Origin: a virus
Strand: one strand, 5' to 3'
DNA length: 26,158 bases
IMG/VR virus record: IMGVR_UViG_3300010885_069969
Span: 1 to 26,158 of that record
In this document: in pieces, positions 2,931 to 25,373 of the stretch
How positions within the stretch are numbered: the first letter of the stretch is position 1
How the letters are laid out: every line of letters starts with the position of its first letter
Translations under genes and position numbers: made by a program
Notes under the pieces: generated by a model
The model's input: the letters and a program-made list of their open reading frames with translations, nothing else
Databases searched by the model: none
Told to the model about the DNA's origin: nothing

Positions 2931-3728
2931 TTAGTCCTCTATTTGAAACTTATTAAGTTTAGATCCTGATAGTATATCGTCTAAAACAGCCTTTAACTTG
3001 CTATACAACAAATTACCGCGAGCTTTAGAAAAGTCCTTTAACTGCTTTATTCTTATTAACTTCCATCCTCGCCCCAAAATCAATCCTTCTTTTTTCTGAT
3101 CATATGAGATATTTTTATTTAATGAATCTTCTCCCCATACTGGAAGAAAATGAGAAGGTCCGTCAATTTCAATAGCTGTATTCATCTTAGGTAGGAAAAT
3201 GTCAATTTGCAACCTTGTTGTTACTAGTCCTTGCTCTTTATGAAATTCTACAACAAATCCATCTTTTAGCAGATTGGATAGTATAAATTTTTCTAATTTT
3301 GACCCTAGTTTACTACTAACCCTAACGGCGGTATTAGCGGCCCGCTGCATATTTGCTTTATCATCAACATTCATCTTTTCCCAATTTTCTTTACATTTGG
3401 TTTTTCTAGCTTCTAACACAGAATCATCTAAATTTTCCCAAGACTGAAGAACTCCATTACCAATCTTATTCTTAATATCTTCTGATCTTTCTGTCCCCTT
3501 TGTAGGATGCTTATGTTTTCCTGTTAATAGGGCATTTTTTTGAGCTTCAGATTTATCACGAATTTCTATACCAAGTTTTATAGCGTCTCTTCTCACTTTA
3601 TTAGCATAAGTCCCGCAAGATAAAGCTATATCTGCAAAACTTTTTTGCTTTTCATGGTATTCTTTTTGGATCAAGTCCAACTTTTGTTCTTTAGATAGTT
3701 TATCATAAACTGTGTTTGAGCTTTTCAT
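2931..3728 (-). CDS. Free-standing Vsr-like (EDxHD) homing endonuclease
   Basis: A 265-aa protein. Residues about 15-55 look like a helix-turn-helix (KSFADIALSCGTYANKVRRD). Residues about 68-90 resemble a NUMOD3-type DNA-binding repeat (TGKHKHPTKGTERSEDIKNK). The C-terminal half has the order of acidic residues and His seen in EDxHD nucleases of the I-Bth0305I type, with a PD-(D/E)XK/Vsr fold: Glu in SKLEKF, Asp in QIDIF, EIDGPSH, Asp in SYDQKK, then a GWKLIRI strand. No intron or intein is visible around it, so it is probably free-standing. It overlaps the upstream gene by 26 bases, with AAGG seven bases before its ATG. It likely cuts a related phage locus lacking it. Confidence 0.7.
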   Translation of the reverse strand: MKSSNTVYDKLSKEQKLDLIQKEYHEKQKSFADIALSCGTYANKVRRDAIKLGIEIRDKSEAQKNALLTGKHKHPTKGTERSEDIKNKIGNGVLQSWENLDDSVLEARKTKCKENWEKMNVDDKANMQRAANTAVRVSSKLGSKLEKFILSNLLKDGFVVEFHKEQGLVTTRLQIDIFLPKMNTAIEIDGPSHFLPVWGEDSLNKNISYDQKKEGLILGRGWKLIRIKQLKDFSKARGNLLYSKLKAVLDDILSGSKLNKFQIED

Positions 3729-4164: not shown

Positions 4165-4913
4165 AGAATAATTTCTTCCATAAACTTAGAATATGTTGTA
4201 TAATTATCATCCGTAGAATTATCGTGGTGATGAAATAGTGACCTTAATTGTTTAGGGCCAGAATTAGCTAAATCCCCCAATTCATCAATACTCCATACAG
4301 AACATCCGCATTTTTTAGCCTCTTGAACATACTCTCCATCTAAACTAAGATAGTTCTTTGACATATTTAGAATCATAGATTTATCTAGTTCTGATAATAG
4401 TCCTAGGTTTTGAGGATGATTTATATTTATGTTATTAAATAGTTTAATAGGAAGATTATTACTATTTGGCAACAGGTATTTAGCTAAGTTTTCTGGTATA
4501 GAATTAAAATTATCCATAAAACATACTATATCATTATTCTTAATTAGATTTTTATCATTAAACAGCTGATCATTATATAGTTTAGGTAGCAGTATGGCAT
4601 TATTTATCTTTTTATCCGAAGATTCTACCAATTGTTTTGCGGCGATATGGTAGTCTTCTATGATTTGTAAATTAACTTGCTTATCGTGATAAATAAAAAT
4701 TTTAACATCTTGGAAAAACTCTGAGGTAAATTGTAGAATTTCTGGAGAAAGCAAGCTCTCCATAAAAATAGCATGGGTAAATTTCCATCCATAAAATATC
4801 TTGTATAGATTTCCATTGATTGGTTCGCACAATATGGAAAAATCATCAGACTTTAGAGTTTTGAGATTATTAACAAATTTATTATTACAAGATTGTATTA
4901 GTATGTTTTTCAT
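4161..4913 (-). CDS. Unknown protein of the glycosyltransferase-like block
   Basis: A 250-aa protein with alternating hydrophobic strands (MKNILIQSC, FTHAIFMESL, VKIFIYHD, NDIVCFMDN) that would suit a GT-B-like or other Rossmann-like fold. No confident catalytic or nucleotide-binding motif is visible. Near the C-terminus there is a His run (LFHHHDNS). Its ATG shares ATGA with the stop of the preceding nucleotidyltransferase-like gene (4910-4913), so the two are probably translationally coupled. Its location inside an uninterrupted run of sugar-related ORFs is the only reason to suggest a role in glycan or nucleotide-sugar chemistry. Confidence 0.55.
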   Translation of the reverse strand: MKNILIQSCNNKFVNNLKTLKSDDFSILCEPINGNLYKIFYGWKFTHAIFMESLLSPEILQFTSEFFQDVKIFIYHDKQVNLQIIEDYHIAAKQLVESSDKKINNAILLPKLYNDQLFNDKNLIKNNDIVCFMDNFNSIPENLAKYLLPNSNNLPIKLFNNININHPQNLGLLSELDKSMILNMSKNYLSLDGEYVQEAKKCGCSVWSIDELGDLANSGPKQLRSLFHHHDNSTDDNYTTYSKFMEEIIL

Positions 4914-10791: not shown

Positions 10792-10819
10792 ATAATACTC
10801 TAACGTCCCATAATGTCAA
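10792..10819 (-). promoter_or_regulatory. Sigma70-type promoter for ssb
   Basis: On the minus strand there is a perfect -35 box TTGACA (10819-10814), a 16-base spacer and a -10 box TATTAT (10797-10792). Transcription would start near 10785, about 40 bases before the ssb ATG. The -35 box overlaps the stop codon of the dnaE C-terminal gene. Confidence 0.7.
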
Positions 10820-11943
10820 GTTCGTGGGGCAAAACATTTTTCAACAATCAGTCCATCCTTTGATTTGCTGCGAGAGCCAACAAATATTAGGATGTTATTG
10901 ATGAAAATATGCGGCTTGTATTCGCTCCACTGCTCTGGAAATAATATTACAGAATCTAGTAGGCCGAATTGATCTTCTATACTTACAAAGGCCATTTCTT
11001 GTCCGGGGTTTTTTCCAACCTTTGTTTTAGTAACATTAACATTACTTATTTGACCAGCAATAATAATATTTTTTGTCATATTAGAATTTTTAAACTCTTT
11101 ACAATCAGTATTTGCCATACTAATATCATATATATCTAATTTAGAACAACTAATTGCTACTCCTAGTGACGAATTCTCTGAATCCGATAACCATTCTATC
11201 TTATCTAATAGCGAATATGGGGGATTTTTAAGAGAATTAATTAAATTATTCATTACATCTACTCTATTTTTATTAACTTTTTTAGTGGAAACTAAAATTT
11301 GTAATATTTTTTCTATTCCTATATTTGGATTCTCTATTAAGATATCATCATAATATGTCATCTCTTTTTTAGTTAGATTAGAACAAATATCAAACTCAAA
11401 AAGCATTTCTGTTCTATTTTTCTTAAAATAATCTAATGCCCCAGCACTTATAAGAGCTTTTGCTGCTATAGAATTAATATTCAGTAAAAGTTTGGATAGT
11501 ATCTGCGGCCATGTTAGCTTACCAATATCCTCACTATTAGTTAGGGTTAATATTTTTTTATATACAGAAGCCCCAACCCCCTTTATGTCCGTTGATCCGA
11601 AATAAATATTCTTATCTTTAAGAATAAAAAACTCATTAAGATTTCTTAAATCTGGAAGATGAACCAATATATCCATTTGGTTCGCATTTTTTACTAGTTC
11701 TTTAATTTCTTGCTGTGGATCTATTTTATCTTTTGCATATCTAAGATATGATGCAAAGAATACTCTTGGAAAATGAGCTTTAGCATAGGCCGATAAATAT
11801 CCATTAATAGCATAACTAACAGCATGAGAATTTGATGTTGCTATACCATTACCATAGAATAAATGATTGTCTGAGGATACTTCTATGTCTACTGTTGGCT
11901 TAATACCAATTTTTTCAATTTTAATAATTTTTTGGGGGTACAT
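10816..11943 (-). CDS. dnaE: DNA polymerase III alpha (DnaE), C-terminal piece with C-part of split intein
   Basis: A 375-aa primary product. Residues 1-38 are a C-terminal intein fragment with the block-F pattern (TVDIEVSSDNHLFYGNG) and the end IATSN. Residues 39 onward begin SHAVSYAINGYLSAYAKAHFP, the continuation of the conserved DnaE FNKSHAVAYA motif. A helix-hairpin-helix-type region (FGSTDIKGVGASV, LISAGALDYF) follows. The last 100 residues look like the OB domain (IIAGQISNVNV, EMAFVSIEDQFG). The first 23 bases overlap the 3' end of the endonuclease gene. It has no polymerase catalytic Asp of its own and must be joined by protein trans-splicing to the fragment encoded at 12876-13775. 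Confidence 0.9.
   Translation of the reverse strand: MYPQKIIKIEKIGIKPTVDIEVSSDNHLFYGNGIATSNSHAVSYAINGYLSAYAKAHFPRVFFASYLRYAKDKIDPQQEIKELVKNANQMDILVHLPDLRNLNEFFILKDKNIYFGSTDIKGVGASVYKKILTLTNSEDIGKLTWPQILSKLLLNINSIAAKALISAGALDYFKKNRTEMLFEFDICSNLTKKEMTYYDDILIENPNIGIEKILQILVSTKKVNKNRVDVMNNLINSLKNPPYSLLDKIEWLSDSENSSLGVAISCSKLDIYDISMANTDCKEFKNSNMTKNIIIAGQISNVNVTKTKVGKNPGQEMAFVSIEDQFGLLDSVILFPEQWSEYKPHIFINNILIFVGSRSKSKDGLIVEKCFAPRT
11830..11943 (-). other. Split intein, C-terminal part (DnaE)
   Basis: 38 residues from Met1 to the terminal Asn of IATSN. The layout closely follows the C-parts of cyanobacterial split DnaE inteins such as Npu, which ends GFIASN; the penultimate residue is Ser in both. 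The residue after the junction is Ser (SHAV), which would be the nucleophile in trans-esterification. Confidence 0.88.
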
Positions 11944-12838
11944 TATAAATTTTCCTTAAATAATTTTTTCTTGCTTGAATGGCTTTTGGGGATCTGTTTG
12001 GAAGTAAAGTTATTAAATTTTTTGTATCTCTTTGATTTAAATAAGAAATAATTATATCGTCTTCTAGTTTGGACCAAAATTTATATTTATTATTTATCAA
12101 TAAAAATTTATTATATTTTCTATCTAGCTTAAATTTAGCATCTTTATACATAATATTAAATAATTTTAGACAGTCTGTTTGGGAGAATGTTAATTCATAA
12201 TATTTATCTTTGACTTTACGCAAGTTACCGAACCCAAGATAATTTTGAAAATCTATTAAAATTTGTTGTGAAGCAGATACGATGTTGGAATAGTAATAAT
12301 CTTTACCTCCTTTATAAAAATTAGTTTTCCATATTGATCCGTCGCCATCAAAAAATCCTCTTAAAAAGTGGGCAATATATTTATTAGGTATTTTTTTAGG
12401 TAGTTCTAAATTAAAAGTTTTCTCATGATCAATACCAAAAGTTAATAATTTTTTATGTAATTGTTTTGAATATATACATAATTGACATTTATCTTGAGAT
12501 ATTCTAACTTTAGAAGTTGGGGATAGACGGTCTCTAATAAAGTTTAAAACTAAAATATCATTTTTATTAATTCCTATGGTTATATATGGCCTATTTTTCC
12601 ATACATGTCCATCCGAAGCTATAAAACCAAGACAGTAAGCCATATCATCTGACCATGTATTAAAATATGTATCTATAGCATGGTATTTGATTTGTGATCC
12701 ACTTGATTTTTTAGGAATATTATATTTTGTTAAATAATTTAGTACTGTAGTTTTTCCTATATTTTTTATATTAGATATCTGTATAGAACTAAGATTTTGA
12801 TTAATATATAGTTCATATAGTTCATTTTTTGTGATCAT
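11921..12838 (-). CDS. Free-standing LAGLIDADG homing endonuclease between split-intein halves
   Basis: A 305-aa protein. Residues about 14-45 look like a helix-turn-helix (SSIQISNIKNIGKTTVLNYL). Two LAGLIDADG helices follow: CLGFIASDGHVW (about 69-80) and FLRGFFDGDGSIW (about 158-170), each with the metal-binding Asp. The C-terminal 45 residues resemble a Myb/SANT-type DNA-binding domain (FWSKLEDDIIISYL, LLPNRSPKAIQARKNYL). It lies exactly in the gap between the two intein halves, where bifunctional inteins carry their endonuclease domain, but has its own start (ATG 12838, GAG about nine bases upstream) and stop. It probably spreads the intein locus by cutting intein-free dnaE. Its 3' end overlaps the downstream gene by 23 bases. 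Confidence 0.85.
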   Translation of the reverse strand: MITKNELYELYINQNLSSIQISNIKNIGKTTVLNYLTKYNIPKKSSGSQIKYHAIDTYFNTWSDDMAYCLGFIASDGHVWKNRPYITIGINKNDILVLNFIRDRLSPTSKVRISQDKCQLCIYSKQLHKKLLTFGIDHEKTFNLELPKKIPNKYIAHFLRGFFDGDGSIWKTNFYKGGKDYYYSNIVSASQQILIDFQNYLGFGNLRKVKDKYYELTFSQTDCLKLFNIMYKDAKFKLDRKYNKFLLINNKYKFWSKLEDDIIISYLNQRDTKNLITLLPNRSPKAIQARKNYLRKIYNVPPKNY

Positions 12839-12875
12839 AAATAATTCTCAAAGAGTATGGTTTAATAAATATTAT

Positions 12876-13775
12876 TTATATACACATAATTTCTAGTTGA
12901 TTTAATAAAATTTCCGATAAAGGATATATTTTCCCATCATTACATAAAAATTTATGCTCCATAGTACAAGTAATAGATTTTCCATCTTCCAGAGTAATTT
13001 TAAATACTTCTTGTTCACCATGATCATATTTATTTATTACTTCAACATATTCGTCTTTGTTGCCGGAATTAGGAGCTAAGATTTTCTCACCTATTTGAAG
13101 ATCTTTTATTTGTTTATCTCCGTATGGAGTAGAAACCATAGTATCCTCTAAAATCGACTTATTAAAAGAATACCTCTGACTCTTTTCGATCCAACCAAAG
13201 ATTTCTTCAGCTTCTTCTGTAGTTACTATTTTTAGCTTTTTAGCTCCCTCTATAAACTTAATTTTCACCTTTGCCATTTCTTCTGGCTTCTTTTTACCAA
13301 TAGCTTTTCTTAACATATCAGCTTCTTGTAAATCAAATCCGGCAATAGCCTGAGTAATTTGCATAGCCTGCTCTTGATAAATCATCTCACCATATGTACT
13401 TTTTAAAGACGGCTCTAATGCAGGATGAAAATAGTCTACGCTCTCTAGATGGTTTTTCTTATCTATAAAATGATTTGCTACGCTTTTACCATCTCTAAAA
13501 GCCTCCAACGATCCCGGCCTCATAATACTAATTAGAGCTGATAATTGTTCTATATTTTCTGGCTTTAGTTTTTTAGCCATACTTTGTCCCAATCTAGACT
13601 CTAACTGAAAACATCCTTTAGTATTACCCTCTCCAATTAAATCCCAAGTTCTTTTACAATCTAGACTGATATCCTCAATCTTTGGAGAAAACAAGATTTT
13701 TGGAAATGCTTTATTAGATCCATCTAGAACAGGGAATTTACATCCACAATCCTCAAACTTAAAAAAATCAGACAT
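12876..13775 (-). CDS. dnaE: DnaE middle piece with N-part of split intein
   Basis: A 299-aa primary product. Residues 1-206 are the fingers region of a C-family polymerase: TKGCFQLESRLGQSMAKKL, ISIMRPGSLEAFRDG, STYGEMIYQEQAMQI, FDLQEADMLRKAIGKKKPEE, then QRYSFNK. The last 93 residues are an N-terminal intein fragment. A longer frame reaches an ATG at 13829, but ATG 13775 is chosen: it has GTGGGG upstream, overlaps the exonuclease stop in ATGTCTGA, and the extra 18 residues would not match DnaE. The catalytic Asp residues lie in the separate upstream piece (14656-16541). How that piece associates with this one is not visible; it may be non-covalent. Confidence 0.88.
   Translation of the reverse strand: MSDFFKFEDCGCKFPVLDGSNKAFPKILFSPKIEDISLDCKRTWDLIGEGNTKGCFQLESRLGQSMAKKLKPENIEQLSALISIMRPGSLEAFRDGKSVANHFIDKKNHLESVDYFHPALEPSLKSTYGEMIYQEQAMQITQAIAGFDLQEADMLRKAIGKKKPEEMAKVKIKFIEGAKKLKIVTTEEAEEIFGWIEKSQRYSFNKSILEDTMVSTPYGDKQIKDLQIGEKILAPNSGNKDEYVEVINKYDHGEQEVFKITLEDGKSITCTMEHKFLCNDGKIYPLSEILLNQLEIMCI
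12879..13157 (-). other. Split intein, N-terminal part (DnaE)
   Basis: 93 residues beginning Ser1 (SILEDTMVSTPYG, block A) and containing block B (TCTMEHKF). The stretch GEQEVFKITLEDGK is strikingly like Npu DnaE-N (GEQEVFEYCLEDGS). It ends at IMCI and a TAA. Cys1 of the cyanobacterial inteins is Ser here. The extein before the junction ends FNK; the C-part continues with SHAV, so splicing restores FNKSHAV. Confidence 0.9.
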
Positions 13776-14481
13776 TGTTCCCCACTGTTTTGTTTGCGAA
13801 AGATCCCTTGAATGTAACCTTTTTTGCACAAGTTCTATGTAGCTTTAGAAATCTAATCAGAATATCTGCTGTATCCCTAACATCCTTTAGAGCATCATGC
13901 CCACCCTCTTTACTTATGCCAAAATAATCTCTTAAATTATCTAAAGTATAGCTCTTTACTTCACTATTCCCCTCAAACCAATAGAAGATCAAATTCATAA
14001 CATCAATAACATCTCTTGGATAAAATAGATTAGATGTTCCTTCTTTATTGACATTCTTATATTTCTTACTTAGTCTATCGGTAATTCTCAAATCATACCT
14101 ATTAATATTAAACCCCGATGCTATAGGAGCACTAAATAGGGATTTTCTATCATTTCTGGTATGATACATATCCAAGTAAGAGATGAATAATTTCCACCCC
14201 TGTTCTTGCTTTTGATAAGTCTTCCACTCTGCTAAAACTTGATCTTTAGTAGAAGATTTTACTTTAGCATGAAAATCTAGGACATCACTATCTTCATAAG
14301 CATAATTAGGATTAGCATCCAATGATTCTGGCCTCATATTAATATTAAATTCAGAATCTTTAACTATTTCTAGTCTAATGGGGTCAATTATTAATGCCGC
14401 AATTTGAACTGGACTACAAACTTCTGGATTTTTACCATCGGTTTCTAGATCGAATACACAGATTTTTTGAAAATTAGCCAT
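13768..14481 (-). CDS. 3'-5' proofreading exonuclease, DnaQ-like (DEDDh)
   Basis: A 237-aa protein with the ExoI motif FDLETDG (Asp11, Glu13), a central NINRYDLR region likely to hold the ExoII Asp, and the ExoIII motif HDALKDVRDTADILIRF (His195, Asp200). This is the DEDDh class of DnaQ/epsilon-type exonucleases. It would remove mismatched 3' ends for the phage DnaE polymerase, whose gene pieces flank it on both sides. The first codons overlap the stop of the 59-aa gene (ATGGCTAA) and its own stop overlaps the next dnaE piece (ATGTCTGA). Expression of polymerase and proofreader is thus coupled. No clamp-binding peptide was recognised. Confidence 0.88.
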   Translation of the reverse strand: MANFQKICVFDLETDGKNPEVCSPVQIAALIIDPIRLEIVKDSEFNINMRPESLDANPNYAYEDSDVLDFHAKVKSSTKDQVLAEWKTYQKQEQGWKLFISYLDMYHTRNDRKSLFSAPIASGFNINRYDLRITDRLSKKYKNVNKEGTSNLFYPRDVIDVMNLIFYWFEGNSEVKSYTLDNLRDYFGISKEGGHDALKDVRDTADILIRFLKLHRTCAKKVTFKGSFANKTVGNNV

Positions 14482-14653
14482 TTGTAATAACTGTAGAGTC
14501 TCCTGAGATAAAATTTATATTACTGGGATCGCCCGATACATAACAATTTACTGATGAGCAACAACTTATTTGAACTGTATCCATCTTAACGTATTCTGTT
14601 TGACTAAATACAAACTTTTCGCCTACTGCAACATCTCTAAAAGCTTTTTCCAT
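14474..14653 (-). CDS. 59-aa protein of unknown function
   Basis: A small gene with good start signals: GGAG, seven bases, then ATG 14653. The ribosome-binding site lies within the last codons of the dnaE N-terminal piece, whose stop is at 14656-14658. The product begins MEKAFRDVAVGEKFVFSQTEY. This opening (hydrophobic/basic start, VGEKF, then an aromatic residue) recalls small bacterial and phage proteins that begin KxFxDVPVGxxF. It contains CC and a further Cys but no clear zinc site. The stop overlaps the exonuclease start by eight bases. Its placement between polymerase and exonuclease suggests involvement in replication, with no direct evidence. Confidence 0.65.
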   Translation of the reverse strand: MEKAFRDVAVGEKFVFSQTEYVKMDTVQISCCSSVNCYVSGDPSNINFISGDSTVITNG

Positions 14654-14655
14654 TT

Positions 14656-16541
14656 TTATTCTCCATTTTTTAATATGTCTGAAATTGTCATAAGTTTATC
14701 TAACACAGCAACTCCTAATATATCAAATTTAATAATCCCCAAAGCTTCCAAATCTTGCATCTCCATTCCTGCAATAGTTTGTTTGTTTTTGGAATCATAA
14801 ATCATAGGACATACTGAAGATAGATTTTCGCTACTGATAACTACACCGGCGGCATGTTTAGACTGATTGGCTTTTGTTCCTTCTAATCTAATAGCCTGTT
14901 CAAACCTTTTGGCAAGGGGGCCAGCCAAACTTCCGTCATCGTCTATATAACACCACTCTTTTAATTGTTCAACATTATTTTCCAAGGCCCATCTTATAAT
15001 TGATGGATCTTCTCCATCTTGTCTCATTTGTTCCAATTCATCGGAAATTTTAGCTTCGTCTGGTATGCTTTTCGTTATTTTATTCATTTCTTCAAACGAA
15101 ATATTACCATATACTCTTAATACTTCTTTTAGGGCTCCTCGACCTTTCATAGTATTATATGTGATCATTTGAGAGACTTTTTTATGACCATATTTATTCT
15201 TGATATATTCTATTATAAATTCTCGCTTATTAATAGGAACGTCAACATCAATATCTGGCATAGAAATTCGGTCTTTAGTATTTCGACCAGAGTTATAAAA
15301 CCGCTGGAAAATTAAATCGTACGGGATAGGGTCTATGGACGTAATACCAATTAAATACGACACCAAACAGCCGGATGCTGACCCTCTGCCCGGCCCCGGC
15401 AACCATCCCTGCTCCCGTACAAAGTTAACAATATCTTGAACAATTAGGAAGTAACTAGACAAGCCAGCACCCTGCAATACTTCCAGCTCATATTTAATTC
15501 GGTCAACATAAATTGAATGCTTTTCTTTATCTATAGTCTTGTCAATTTTCTGCTTCCATCCTTCTCTACACAGCTGCCTTAAATAAGTATCAGGATTATA
15601 TTCTTTTGGACACTCAAAAGAAGGTAATAACGGCTTGCTTAAAATATTATACTCTTCACATAAACTATCTACATAATTAGTATTCTCTATTTCTTCCGGA
15701 GTATGCAATTCGGCCATTTCTTCTGGAGATAGAATATAGAAATTATCAGATCTAAAAAAACAACTCATTGGAACTTTCTCATTATTTAATAATTTCTTAT
15801 TAATATCAACAATAGTTGTTTTTAAAGTATTACATAATAATATTCTTTGATCAACAGCGTCCTCTTTTTCACAATAATGAGCGTCGGGAGTACAAATAAC
15901 CTTAGTTTTAGTGAGCTCTCCAATTCTACGAATATGCTCAGTCATCTCTGTCATTTCTGGAGTATATTTATAATCCATCAATTGTGATTCAAGATAGAAA
16001 TTATCCTGCCCAAAAATATCTTTCATTTTTGCAACAAATTCGATTCCTATTTTTGAAGCATTGTCTCGATCTTGTTGTATTAGGTCGGACAAATAAGAAC
16101 CAAGATGTCCACAAAAACCAATAATATTACCGTCTAAAAATTGAGACAGCTTATCAAAATCTAATCTTGGCTTATGATAAAAATTGTCTCCAGAATTAGA
16201 GGCTGAAACAATCTGGATTAAATTTTTCCATCCTTTATAGTTTTTTGCTAATAATAAAAAGTGGCTAAGATCACTATTTTCCTTAGTTTTAATATTACTA
16301 TCTTGATGAGATAAATATATTTCACAACCGAGAATTGGTTTAATCTTTTTAGCTTTCATAGCCTGATAGAATTGTACACAACCAGATATTGATCCATGAT
16401 CTGTTATGGCACAAGATTTAACATCTATTTTAGTACATCTTTGAGCTATTTGGCTTGGTTTACTGAGTCCATCCAAAAGTGAATAATGAGATTCACTTAA
16501 GAATGGACGTGTAAAGGACTATATTCCTTAATCACGCCCAT
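14656..16541 (-). CDS. dnaE: DnaE N-terminal piece: PHP and palm domains, start interrupted by an 11-nt gap
   Basis: Uninterrupted coding runs from about 16518 to 14656. Numbered from TTG 16476 (606 aa), the PHP domain has metal ligands Asp26-His27, Glu52, His72, His124, Asp198 and His200. The palm has GPGRGSASG (361-369), PDIDVDV with Asp408 and Asp410, and KFDILG with Asp585, the three polymerase carboxylates. The missing PHP HxH strand is present upstream in another frame: ATG 16541 (AAGGAG ten bases before) encodes MGVIKEYSPLHVHS, then TAA. Skipping 16489-16499 gives HVHSHYSLLDG and a 624-aa product. If not recoded, translation must begin downstream (for example TTG 16476) and lose the HxH. 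It ends in the linker just after Asp585; the rest of DnaE is at 12876-13775. Confidence 0.8.
16477..16502 (-). promoter_or_regulatory. Candidate translational bypass (recoding) site in dnaE
   Basis: On the minus strand: codon TCT (16502-16500), stop TAA (16499-16497), GTGAA, a second TCT (16491-16489), then CAT TAT TCA. A hairpin AAGTGAAT / loop CTCATT / ATTCACTT with an 8-bp perfect stem occupies 16498-16477. If peptidyl-tRNA leaves the first TCT and lands on the second, 11 nt are skipped and the PHP motif HVHSHYSLLDG is restored exactly. Matched codons, an immediate stop and a hairpin are features of the T4 gene 60 bypass. This is an inference; no expression data are available. Confidence 0.45.
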
Positions 16542-17250
16542 ACTTTATATTCTCCTTGTTTTTTGTGACCCGTCCGCACATCTGAATAAAATCAGAAAGA
16601 GGAAAGTCTAGTTTCATTTTGTTGATTTTTGTATCCGTCCACCAAACATTATCTTTCGTGTATCCTTTGGTGCTATCTATCCTATCCACAGATCCGTTTT
16701 TGTCAAGATCTATTTCTAATCCAGTAATCGCACATTTGCGATGTTGTTTCTCAAATAAATCCCATAAAAATTTTGCAGTAAGATTGAATTGAAAATTCTT
16801 TTTTTTTGCTCTTAATCGGATTTCTGCTATTCTACTACCACTAACTCCACAATATCCTTTCCATCTATGATTTTTGAGTCTTTTGCGATAACACCCACAA
16901 CTACCAACTCTTCCATTTTTTAGTTGTGAGGTTCTTACTTTAGTAGTCTTTCCACAAGAGCATTTACATAACCAAATTAAAGTGCCGTTTTTAGATTTGC
17001 TATCTACACTAATAGTAGTTAAGTATTTAAATGTATCTCCTATATTAATTTCTTTGGTTCTTTTTTCTTGAGGGATACCGTAATATTCTAGATAGTTATA
17101 AATAGTTTTTGCTGAAACCCCTAATTTTTTTGCTATTACATATGGTCCTTTTTTACTTTTACAATATTCTTCTTCTAAATATTCTTTAGTAATTTTTTTA
17201 TCGTATGCTTTTACAAATCTTCCATTGCTAACTTTCCTGCCTCTTTTCAT
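16528..17250 (-). CDS. HNH homing endonuclease inserted at the start of dnaE
   Basis: A 240-aa protein. Residues about 20-60 form a likely helix-turn-helix (GPYVIAKKLGVSAKTIYNYL). The middle has a four-Cys zinc-type module (WLCKCSCGKT, VGSCGC) common in phage HNH proteins. The C-terminal nuclease has CAITG, SVDRIDSTKGYTKDNVWW and NKMK, the layout of phage HNH endonucleases. The start ATG 17250 has AAAGGAG seven bases upstream. It is flanked by two copies of the beginning of dnaE, so it probably cuts that site in a related phage. Its last codons overlap the second dnaE start (ATG 16541). No group I intron core was found around it, so it seems to be a free-standing (intronless) element. Confidence 0.85.
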   Translation of the reverse strand: MKRGRKVSNGRFVKAYDKKITKEYLEEEYCKSKKGPYVIAKKLGVSAKTIYNYLEYYGIPQEKRTKEINIGDTFKYLTTISVDSKSKNGTLIWLCKCSCGKTTKVRTSQLKNGRVGSCGCYRKRLKNHRWKGYCGVSGSRIAEIRLRAKKKNFQFNLTAKFLWDLFEKQHRKCAITGLEIDLDKNGSVDRIDSTKGYTKDNVWWTDTKINKMKLDFPLSDFIQMCGRVTKNKENIKYGRD

Positions 17251-17302: not shown

Positions 17303-17341
17303 TTAGTGAGCATGTACATGGAGAGGAATATAATTTTTCAT
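17303..17341 (-). pseudogene. Stranded first 12 codons of dnaE
   Basis: ATG 17341 shares ATGA with the stop of the 69-aa gene and reads MKNYIPLHVHAH, then TAA. PLHVH(A/S)H is the HxH start of a PHP domain and continues naturally into YSLLDG, which now lies about 0.8 kb downstream beyond the HNH gene. The remnant matches the second copy (EYSPLHVHS) at protein level, but codons differ (CTC/TTA, CAT/CAC, GTA/GTC), so the two copies come from diverged dnaE alleles. This was probably the original start, cut off when the endonuclease gene arrived. Confidence 0.7.
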
Positions 17342-23300: not shown

Positions 23301-25373
23301 TTATTCCTTTACAAAGCCAAGCATCTTTTTGATATCTAGATATAGATTATTATAGATTTCTTTATTTTCTATTAAATAGTTTCTAATCTTTTCTGTTCCT
23401 TGAAATTTGGGCTTATCTTCTAAAAAGGATAGAGTATACCAAGAACCAGTTTTTTCTATTAATCCAAAACTAATAGCTAATTCTATAACTTCCTTATATT
23501 CATCTATACCTTCTCCATAACGAATATAGCTAACAGTTTCTCCTCCGGGAGCCCCTAATGCACACCATTGTACAGTCCAATGAACCTCTTGGCCGATTGG
23601 ATTACCTTCTTGGGTTAAAGACCATAAAGTGTGATATTTTGCTCTTAATTTAACGTCACCCTGATAACCAATACCTTGACCGCTTTTTTCTTTCCACTCA
23701 GCATGTCCATTACCGGGATTTCCCATTAAATGAGTAATACCAATAACGATATTTTTATTAACAGCAATAACATTCGCTACTTTTCTACAAAATTTAGATA
23801 ATAGTTTTGGACCATCTGCTCTTTGCATCTTATCCATATCGCTCGTTAATTCTGTTTCTGTACATAATGCAGAATAGGAGTCTATAATTACTACGCAACC
23901 GGGTTCTTCATTAATTACTCTATCCGCAATTTGCAGAAACTTTTCAGCAGTAAGAATGTTCCCTTGTTCTGAACCAATGATGTGAAACTTTTCTTTATTG
24001 ATTCCGGGAATACCAGCTAAATCTCGTGGCTTTATTCTTCCTTCCACATTAAAATAATAAACATTTCTATTACCATATTCGGGTTTTTGTGCATTCGCAG
24101 CAAAAGATAAACTGGTGAGGGTATTATGGGTTATAATAAATTCATTAGTTAAAAAAAGACCGTCTTGGGTATTGATTTTAATACATGTTGCCTTTTCCCG
24201 ACATATATGTGAAACATTAGTTATTGTTCTGAATAAAGGAGGTTTTTTTCTTGGGTTATTGAATTTTTTTCTCTTTAACTGGAATAGAGAATCTATATTA
24301 TTTCCATGAATATATAAGCGATAAGATAGAAATTTCTGGTTTGATCCAGTATAGCTTGTGTATCTGGAGACTATTTTAGCTGTATACCCTAGAGATTGCA
24401 AAATTTCTTGAACATCTTTAGCTAGAGTTTCTGATACGCTAGTATATTCGGCTCTAAAACCGTCACTACTACCATCAGTATCCATCAAACCCCTAATTAA
24501 TTTAAGTCTATTCTTTAGACTGCTATATTTATAGCTTTCTGGAATAAATTTAGTATGAGAATTAGTTCCCATTATATTAATTCTTTTAAGTTTTTTGGTT
24601 AAAGTATTTCCAGAATTTTTACTTTGTTCAACAATATGAAAATCGATATTATTTTTTATAGTAATTTTTAATTTATTATTCTTGGCATACGTTGTAAATT
24701 TTTTTCTAATAGATTTATCACAAGTAGACATTCCAGGAGTTTTGGCAGATAGACATCCGTCACCGATCAGGCATCCGAAAATATATGGGTCAATTTCTAG
24801 CTTGTCGTTTCTATTAAATTGTACTGGTTGAGTTAAAGATATTTTCCACTTATATCTATCATTATATCTGAGTCCAGATTTTAGTATTTCTTCTAATGAC
24901 ATTGTTATAAATTTATTAGATCTATTATTTTTTGCTACAGTCCAATTGTGGTCTAGTGTGCATTTTGCTTTTGATCCGTCATTAAAGGTAACTTCATAAA
25001 TATCCATTTCTCCTTGAGGATATACTCCGATTACTTCGGCTGTATCTCCAGCTGGAGTATTTACAATATCTCCTAGTGAAATTTCTCCCATTTTTTTAGG
25101 GCCTTTAGGAGTATAAACTATAGAAGAATTAGCTAAACTTTTCCCACATTTTGGCTGACCTGTAAATACCACAAAGCTACCTTCTGGTATACCCCCTCCT
25201 AAAATTAAGTCAAGAGCTGGGCTAACAGGAATGACTATGGTTTTCTTATCCATCACATAATTTGCATCCACCACTATACCAGCCCCGAAATCTTTTTTAA
25301 TGCTACTTAGCATTTTATCCGAAGCATTTACAGATTTTTCAGAATCAACTTCCTTTTCCTTCGTTTTAGCCAT
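23301..25373 (-). CDS. recA: RecA/UvsX-like recombinase with an in-frame intein
   Basis: A 690-aa precursor. Residues 1-78 are RecA up to the Walker A loop GQPKCGK; 79-417 are an intein; 418-690 continue TLTSLSFAANAQ. Splicing gives a 351-aa protein, the normal RecA size, with P-loop GQPKCGKT. Later motifs include VVIIDSYSAL (Walker B) and VIGITHLMGNPG (DNA-binding loop region). It catalyses strand exchange during phage recombination and repair. Because the intein sits in the ATP site, the precursor should be inactive until spliced. The first codons overlap the upstream stop in ATGGCTAA. Confidence 0.93.
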   Translation of the reverse strand: MAKTKEKEVDSEKSVNASDKMLSSIKKDFGAGIVVDANYVMDKKTIVIPVSPALDLILGGGIPEGSFVVFTGQPKCGKSLANSSIVYTPKGPKKMGEISLGDIVNTPAGDTAEVIGVYPQGEMDIYEVTFNDGSKAKCTLDHNWTVAKNNRSNKFITMSLEEILKSGLRYNDRYKWKISLTQPVQFNRNDKLEIDPYIFGCLIGDGCLSAKTPGMSTCDKSIRKKFTTYAKNNKLKITIKNNIDFHIVEQSKNSGNTLTKKLKRINIMGTNSHTKFIPESYKYSSLKNRLKLIRGLMDTDGSSDGFRAEYTSVSETLAKDVQEILQSLGYTAKIVSRYTSYTGSNQKFLSYRLYIHGNNIDSLFQLKRKKFNNPRKKPPLFRTITNVSHICREKATCIKINTQDGLFLTNEFIITHNTLTSLSFAANAQKPEYGNRNVYYFNVEGRIKPRDLAGIPGINKEKFHIIGSEQGNILTAEKFLQIADRVINEEPGCVVIIDSYSALCTETELTSDMDKMQRADGPKLLSKFCRKVANVIAVNKNIVIGITHLMGNPGNGHAEWKEKSGQGIGYQGDVKLRAKYHTLWSLTQEGNPIGQEVHWTVQWCALGAPGGETVSYIRYGEGIDEYKEVIELAISFGLIEKTGSWYTLSFLEDKPKFQGTEKIRNYLIENKEIYNNLYLDIKKMLGFVKE
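24123..25139 (-). other. Full-length intein with LAGLIDADG endonuclease in the RecA P-loop
   Basis: 339 residues. It starts Ser1 (SLANSSIVYTPKGPKKMG, block A), with block B near TLDHNW. Two LAGLIDADG helices are visible (IFGCLIGDGCLS and LIRGLMDTDGSSDG). It ends with block F/G (GLFLTNEFIITHN). The residue after the junction is Thr. All splicing and endonuclease residues seem intact, so it should be both able to splice and to home. Confidence 0.92.

Follow-up and report, generated by a model that had tools for sequence, protein, structure and literature searches.

The question raised by this locus is how a DnaE polymerase could be made from a gene whose conserved N-terminus is closed by a stop codon and lies in a different frame from the rest of the protein. 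The window, which is the whole analysed stretch of 26,158 nt from the virus record IMGVR_UViG_3300010885_069969, carries on its minus strand a dnaE body (14656..16488) with the PHP and DNA_pol3_alpha domains (Pfam PF02811 and PF07733), where the protein resumes at HYSLLDG. CAT at 16488 is the first codon of HYSLLDGLSKPS..., in a frame that differs from that of the upstream leader ORF MGVIKEYSPLHVHS (16500..16541, minus strand). The leader forms a cassette-borne new 5′ end of dnaE; its ATG (16541-16539) is preceded by the Shine-Dalgarno sequence AAGGAG (16551..16556, minus strand), and a purine-rich site lies upstream of the ATG in the element-bearing leaders listed. Its last codon, the take-off codon TCT (16500-16502), is directly followed by the stop TAA (16497-16499), which opens a gap of 11 nt, TAAGTGAATCT (16489..16499), and the 3′ end of the gap is a second TCT, the landing triplet (16489-16491), all on the minus strand. 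Counted from TTG at 16476, the DnaE ORF comprises 606 residues with the PHP and polymerase parts. The sequence features given in a preliminary description of the locus, namely the ATG with its AAGGAG, the leader peptide, the TAA behind TCT and the second TCT 11 nt further on followed by DnaE in another frame, were all re-read and are correct. Very probably, the arrangement represents a mobile cassette that combines an HNH endonuclease gene with a short programmed ribosomal-bypass element and has been inserted near codon 12 of a phage dnaE.

The interruption recurs in relatives. The preliminary description had proposed a search for related dnaE genes with and without the insert, and when viral contigs were searched with the dnaE body alone, 19 of the 80 dnaE loci found were interrupted in the identical manner and 61 were uninterrupted. 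None of the 80 showed any other kind of damage, leaving just two states at the 5′ ends. Together with pattern scans, the body search located the element on at least 74 contigs, which come from 64 metagenomes and comprise 47 distinct core sequences; one further true copy was found on a Chitinophagia MAG contig (L148), while a candidate in genome contigs (L147) was judged to be a chance match. Since the pattern scans specified some bases beforehand, including part of the motif, and the shuffles described below are partly bound by relatedness, the argument from recurrence is carried by the unbiased body-search set. A covariance model scored the elements at 64-100 bits and everything else at no more than 31 bits, the latter consisting mainly of starts of intact dnaE genes and of element sequences read on the reverse strand; it detected no decayed or intermediate copies and, in 0.97 Mb of loci, no element outside dnaE. 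The cassette sits at one exact spot of dnaE in many environmental phages. Among GenBank phages only distant DnaE relatives were found, with identities of at most 34% among the matches listed.

Both halves of the interrupted gene are under selection, and the DnaE residues are intact on both sides of the gap in the elements. The leader peptide YxPLHVHS is invariant in all 20 sequences that were selected without that peptide, with its proline and leucine codons (CCN and YTN) varying silently. The dnaE body evolves at dN/dS of 0.02-0.09, similarly to intact genes, and the element has been kept between related genes at dS of 1-2.4. A hop from TCT to TCT had been noted to give HVHSHYSLLDG, as expected for the start of the PHP domain, and the hop product indeed attains the best PHP score in Pfam with 116.4 bits, compared with 106.4 for a -1 frameshift product and 93.5 for a truncated product. 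Aligned with the DnaE chain 2hpi, it also shows no gap across the first metal-binding motif.

Comparison of the 47 distinct elements reveals what is fixed and what varies at the junction. A stop directly follows the serine codon in all 47 (TAA in 26, TAG in 19 and TGA in 2), and while the pattern behind this tally required a stop, the unbiased body-search set shows it too. The homologous gaps range from 8 to 12 nt (8 nt in three elements, 9 in 11, 10 in 15, 11 in 17 and 12 in one), and the in-frame 9- and 12-nt gaps retain the stop, though a single stop mutation would open the frame. Because the gaps occur in all three frame phases, no fixed frameshift can explain the elements; the two coding segments belong to one protein that no single frameshift bridges, and the PHP domain is continuous across them. 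The landing triplet has C as its middle base in every element and is TCT, TCA or TCC in 30 and ACT, GCT or GCC in 17; relative to the take-off codon it is the same codon in 12, another serine codon in 18 and a two-of-three match in 17. The matched-codon hop put forward in the preliminary description therefore holds for the TCT/TCT pair of the window but fails as a strict rule for the family, where pairing at landing must be partial given the 17 landings on ACT, GCT or GCC. Variable gaps and non-serine landings had been overlooked there, as had the native 5′ end, the larger 5′ stem-loop and the lower take-off stem.

Two hairpins in the mRNA flank the take-off codon, one being the 5′ stem-loop and the other, which begins at the stop, the take-off stem-loop. 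The former, found by folding, covariation and arm swaps, consists of outer arms at 16533-16541 and 16503-16511 (9 bp including a G-U, minus strand) and an inner helix at 16525-16529/16514-16518. Its start-codon region ATGG[AG]CRTG pairs with CAYGTCCAT, the codons for HVH, and the structure ends exactly at the take-off codon. The inner helix is formed between codons 4-6 and the Pro-Leu codons, whose silent codon choice it follows, with arm pairs such as AGAGG/CCUCU, AAAGG/CCUUU, AGCG/CGCU and AACG/CGUU. The upper part of the take-off stem-loop, AAGTGAAT (16491-16498) paired with ATTCACTT (16477-16484, both minus strand), is the 8-bp hairpin over the gap and landing site that had been described previously, and places the landing codon in or next to the loop. 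According to the minimum-energy fold it continues into a lower stem of GTCCATTC (16501-16508) and GGATGGAC (16467-16474, both minus strand), which holds most of the take-off codon and both excludes and competes with the outer arm of the 5′ stem-loop. GGATGGAC, a motif that the pattern scans favour in part, is present in 40 of the 47 elements versus 6 of 39 intact genes. The fold z-score is -5.1 for the 76-nt region and -5.5 for the 5′ stem-loop alone; with the recurrence in 47 distinct cores, this puts the anatomy of the window far beyond chance.

The pairing is maintained by covariation. Among the distinct leaders, 19 have G-C, 10 have A-U and 2 have G-U as the main covarying pair of the 5′ stem-loop, with zero exceptions, and when inner-helix arms were swapped between elements, 0 of 500 and 0 of 5000 swaps matched the native pairing, with relatedness partly remaining in the comparison. 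In the take-off stem, the stop codon and the bases next to it pair with the Tyr-Ser-Leu codons through 24 distinct arm pairs, which include TAACGA/TCGTTA, TAGCGA/TCGCTA, TAGTGA/TCACTA and TAGAGAAT/ATTCTCTA; the arm-swap test gave 6.51 against 4.81 (sd 0.17; 0 of 1000), again with some relatedness retained. As a point against, the stem contains an internal mismatch in two elements (L099 and L110). With the structure as written out, 97.2% of the cells are paired compared with 32-56% when it is slid, and double changes number 21 against 6.6 in shuffles that remove relatedness only partly. G-U cells outnumber A-C cells by 41 to 3, indicating that the folded molecule is the sense RNA and ruling out a DNA cruciform or an antisense structure. 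The synonymous codon choice downstream is also distinct, with serine TCA in 27 of 33 genes with the element versus 3 of 39 without it, and leucine CTT in 29 of 33 versus 3 of 39.

Directly upstream of the element in the window lies an ORF of 240 aa (16528..17250, minus strand) with matches to the HNH and endonuclease families phrog_374, 3118 and 3322 and with an HNH-type nuclease domain, a putative homing endonuclease. The new dnaE start overlaps with the 3′ end of this ORF, in which the Shine-Dalgarno site of the leader is also located. Further upstream, at 17303..17341 (minus strand), the displaced native 5′ end of dnaE, MKNYIPLHVHAH*, has been severed from the body by the insertion; 11 of its 12 residues equal those of MKNYIPLHVHSHYSLLDG, the uninterrupted start of the nearest intact relative (L001). 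Displaced start, HNH ORF and leader together show that the window contains a native start, an inserted endonuclease gene and a stop-ended replacement start. HNH genes that are 58-59% identical occupy the same place in five other loci (L139, L140, L093, L141 and L142), and the six homologues conserve CAIT...DRIDS..GY..NVWW.

Among 43 distinct elements, a full-length HNH ORF is found directly 5′ in 8, fragments in 4 and none in 31. The ORFs at elements form one family of 238-245 aa and overlap the element ATG or end just before it, and in one case (L060/L061; L061 around 4430-4725) a C-terminal HNH remnant extends over the start codon of a dnaE that is not interrupted. Such a mixture of full, fragmentary and absent genes would be expected if a homing gene had been gained, had degenerated and had been lost, and the link to homing is indirect, given that 31 of 43 elements have no HNH gene and one intact dnaE is preceded by a remnant. 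On a maximum-likelihood tree of the dnaE body, element-bearing and intact states interleave with 15 changes, at least 8 of them forced by well-supported branches, giving a patchy distribution. As a homing endonuclease, the HNH enzyme would cut the element-free allele and favour its own inheritance. The distant HNH relatives L237-L287 display no bypass signature at their 3′ ends. Related HNH genes without a bypass signature are also located directly 5′ of a dnaE-adjacent PD-(D/E)XK nuclease gene (L120:7450-7977, L109:3329-3847 and, in L264, upstream of 3702). In another phage (L237, 3001-3700) an HNH relative overlaps the start of an ORF resembling the C-terminal part of DnaE, which suggests that the split polymerase has been targeted repeatedly.

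From these features we infer the following course of translation. The cassette would bring a ribosome-binding site, a start codon and a copy of the DnaE N-terminus (M..YxPLHVHS), followed by a stop in the same frame and by a few bases that stay untranslated and join exactly before HYSLLDG. A ribosome initiating at 16541 would stall once its P site holds Ser-tRNA on TCT and its A site UAA. The hairpin downstream, UAAGUGAAU...AUUCACUU, may form at or in the A site and exclude the release factor. The peptidyl-tRNA would then detach from the mRNA, and the 5′ stem-loop would zip behind the ribosome, the inner helix before the 9-bp outer stem, and push the mRNA 11 nt forward. By the hairpin loop, the tRNA would re-pair at the NCN triplet right before CAT, and decoding would continue as HYSLLDG. 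The predicted product is an uninterrupted DnaE including the HxH metal-binding motif, and the predicted tryptic peptide across the hop junction is EYSPLHVHSHYSLLDGLSKPSQIAQR. The gap and hairpin probably ruin the endonuclease target, which would make the cassette immune and leave intact dnaE alleles to be cut and converted. Bypass is supported by the stop in every copy, the gaps of 8-12 nt in all phases, the conserved flanking peptide, the covarying hairpins and the patchy mobility. The earlier proposal of a second cassette in which a short bypass akin to that of T4 gene 60 is coupled to an HNH gene has thus gained support, being the sole reading found to fit all of the comparative data.

One point against bypass is that the ACT, GCT and GCC landings (17 of 47) match the serine anticodon at two positions only. 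The leader spans 13-14 codons, its conserved Y.PLHVHS is accounted for by DnaE function and an equivalent of the KKYK signal is not possible at the T4 distance; with a nascent chain of 14 residues, too short for a T4-type tunnel signal, retention of the peptidyl-tRNA needs another explanation. The hop could instead be set by the hairpin, with the landing triplet at the top of the take-off stem, one arm skipped, two-of-three pairing and no long nascent signal, a proposal to which we give an even chance. If true, a hairpin-set hop of 8-12 nt that tracks stem length would be a mechanism distinct from the long sliding in T4.

The alternatives to bypass fare poorly against the comparative evidence. 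Translation could stop at the end of the leader and re-initiate downstream, giving a truncated DnaE from TTG 16476 (MDGLSKPS...) or a nearby start, and nearly all elements indeed have TTG as the fifth codon behind the gap, with an ATG at the resume codon in ATG-type elements. However, the gap has no Shine-Dalgarno sequence, the TTG adjoins a hairpin arm, and L004 has CTG in its place with the next ATG only at codon 43. Re-initiation would also leave the silently varying YxPLHVHS of the leader unexplained, while the PHP score is best with the leader included, and a truncated start, named earlier as a simpler explanation, is contradicted by the 9-, 10- and 12-nt gaps and by retention over dS above 1; we regard it as improbable. 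A -1 ribosomal frameshift at the stop or ahead of it would suit the 11-nt gap of the window, for which it had been suggested with the product HVHS-LSES-HYSLLDG. It is nevertheless most improbable: the window has no slippery heptamer (X XXY YYZ), gaps of 9, 10 and 12 nt in the relatives would require other shifts or readthrough, a series that contradicts the suggestion, and the frameshift product scores 10 bits below the hop product against PHP.

The gap might also be removed at the RNA level, with the hairpin cut and the mRNA re-ligated as a mini-intron. A strong conserved RNA hairpin does span the gap, and RNA ligases can be phage-encoded. No known intron class fits, however, as there is no Rfam match and no group I or II boundary and the gap has 8-12 nt, and a stop behind the serine codon would need no conserving, yet every element has one, with all three types represented; RNA-level removal is accordingly rated as quite improbable. 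Splicing of a group I or II intron or another type over the whole HNH insert was considered separately and rejected, since the insert is nearly all ORF, has no Rfam match and has junctions without a G-ending or GUGYG boundary. Finally, the sequence is a metagenomic assembly, and a damaged gene or an assembly error had been listed among the simpler explanations. The chance of this is negligible, considering the at least 74 contigs from 64 metagenomes, the retention over dS of 1-2.4 with body dN/dS of 0.02-0.09 and the failure of the covariance model to find decayed copies; for the family, damage is refuted by recurrence and purifying selection.

Bypassing in phages is, to our knowledge, firmly established for one T4 gene only, and no report of bypassing in dnaE was found in the open-licence literature. 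Descriptions of T4 gene 60 call it apparently unique, and shorter counterparts have long been presumed by reviewers to exist (PMC3014915, PMC5009743). The dnaE cassette shares with the gene 60/mobA pair an upstream HNH gene in the same phage gene, a take-off codon followed immediately by an in-frame stop that is placed in the A site, a take-off stem-loop that involves this codon and the stop, a distinct 5′ stem-loop of two parts shortly before it, a change of frame at resumption and the existence of related phages without the insert (PMC5009743, PMC3014915, PMC11194080). In contrast, the gap measures 50 nt in T4 and 8-12 nt in the dnaE cassette, the landing site is beyond the take-off hairpin in T4 but in or beside the loop in dnaE, where landings are often matched at two of three positions, and the KKYK-type tunnel signal of T4 lies about 30 residues back, which the 13-14-codon dnaE leader cannot accommodate. 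The dnaE cassette, moreover, is located in a different gene and forms a family in dozens of phage lineages. Owing to the differences in gap, landing and leader it is a variant of T4 gene 60 and not a copy, and it is in these same differences that the mechanistic model is weakest.

Other systems resemble the dnaE cassette in single aspects. The byps of Magnusiomyces capitatus are likewise many short bypassed inserts with a sometimes imperfect match between take-off and landing, but are mitochondrial and seemingly independent of mRNA context (PMC5009743), whereas the dnaE elements have hairpins conserved by covariation and a single insertion site and are found in phages. The terminase gene of the Streptomyces phage Hau3 is a likely case of short-gap bypass in a phage gene, although it is unproven, associated with a UUA codon and possibly regulatory, and the source mentions no homing endonuclease (PMC5009743). 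With MobE in nrdA of phage Aeh1, an HNH gene has likewise entered an essential phage gene at a functionally critical part, but it divides nrdA into separate coding regions (PMC2988022); the dnaE cassette provides both a bypass and a 5′ end to replace the old one, and one protein is predicted.

The dnaE elements turn an apparent one-off bypass into a testable family, for which dozens of natural variants, covarying structures and element-free sister genes are available, so that evolutionary comparison can disclose the rules that govern take-off, gap length and landing, and short constructs can serve to test them. The elements also support the view that bypass elements are disseminated in mobile cassettes together with homing endonucleases, and polymerase genes with the element are likely annotated as truncated by gene callers. 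In the window, the polymerase gene (10816-16541) is also split in two, with a DnaQ-like exonuclease gene (13768-14481) between the parts and the dnaE body as the first half, and its C-terminal part contains an intein-like segment with a LAGLIDADG ORF (11921-12838). Another putative homing endonuclease, with matches to HNH/homing PHROG families, is encoded at 2931-3728. A search for tRNA genes found none in the window. A RecA/UvsX-like gene at 23301-25373 is interrupted by an intein-like segment, and its PHROG matches comprise recombinase families as well as unrelated families that are probably intein-bearing.
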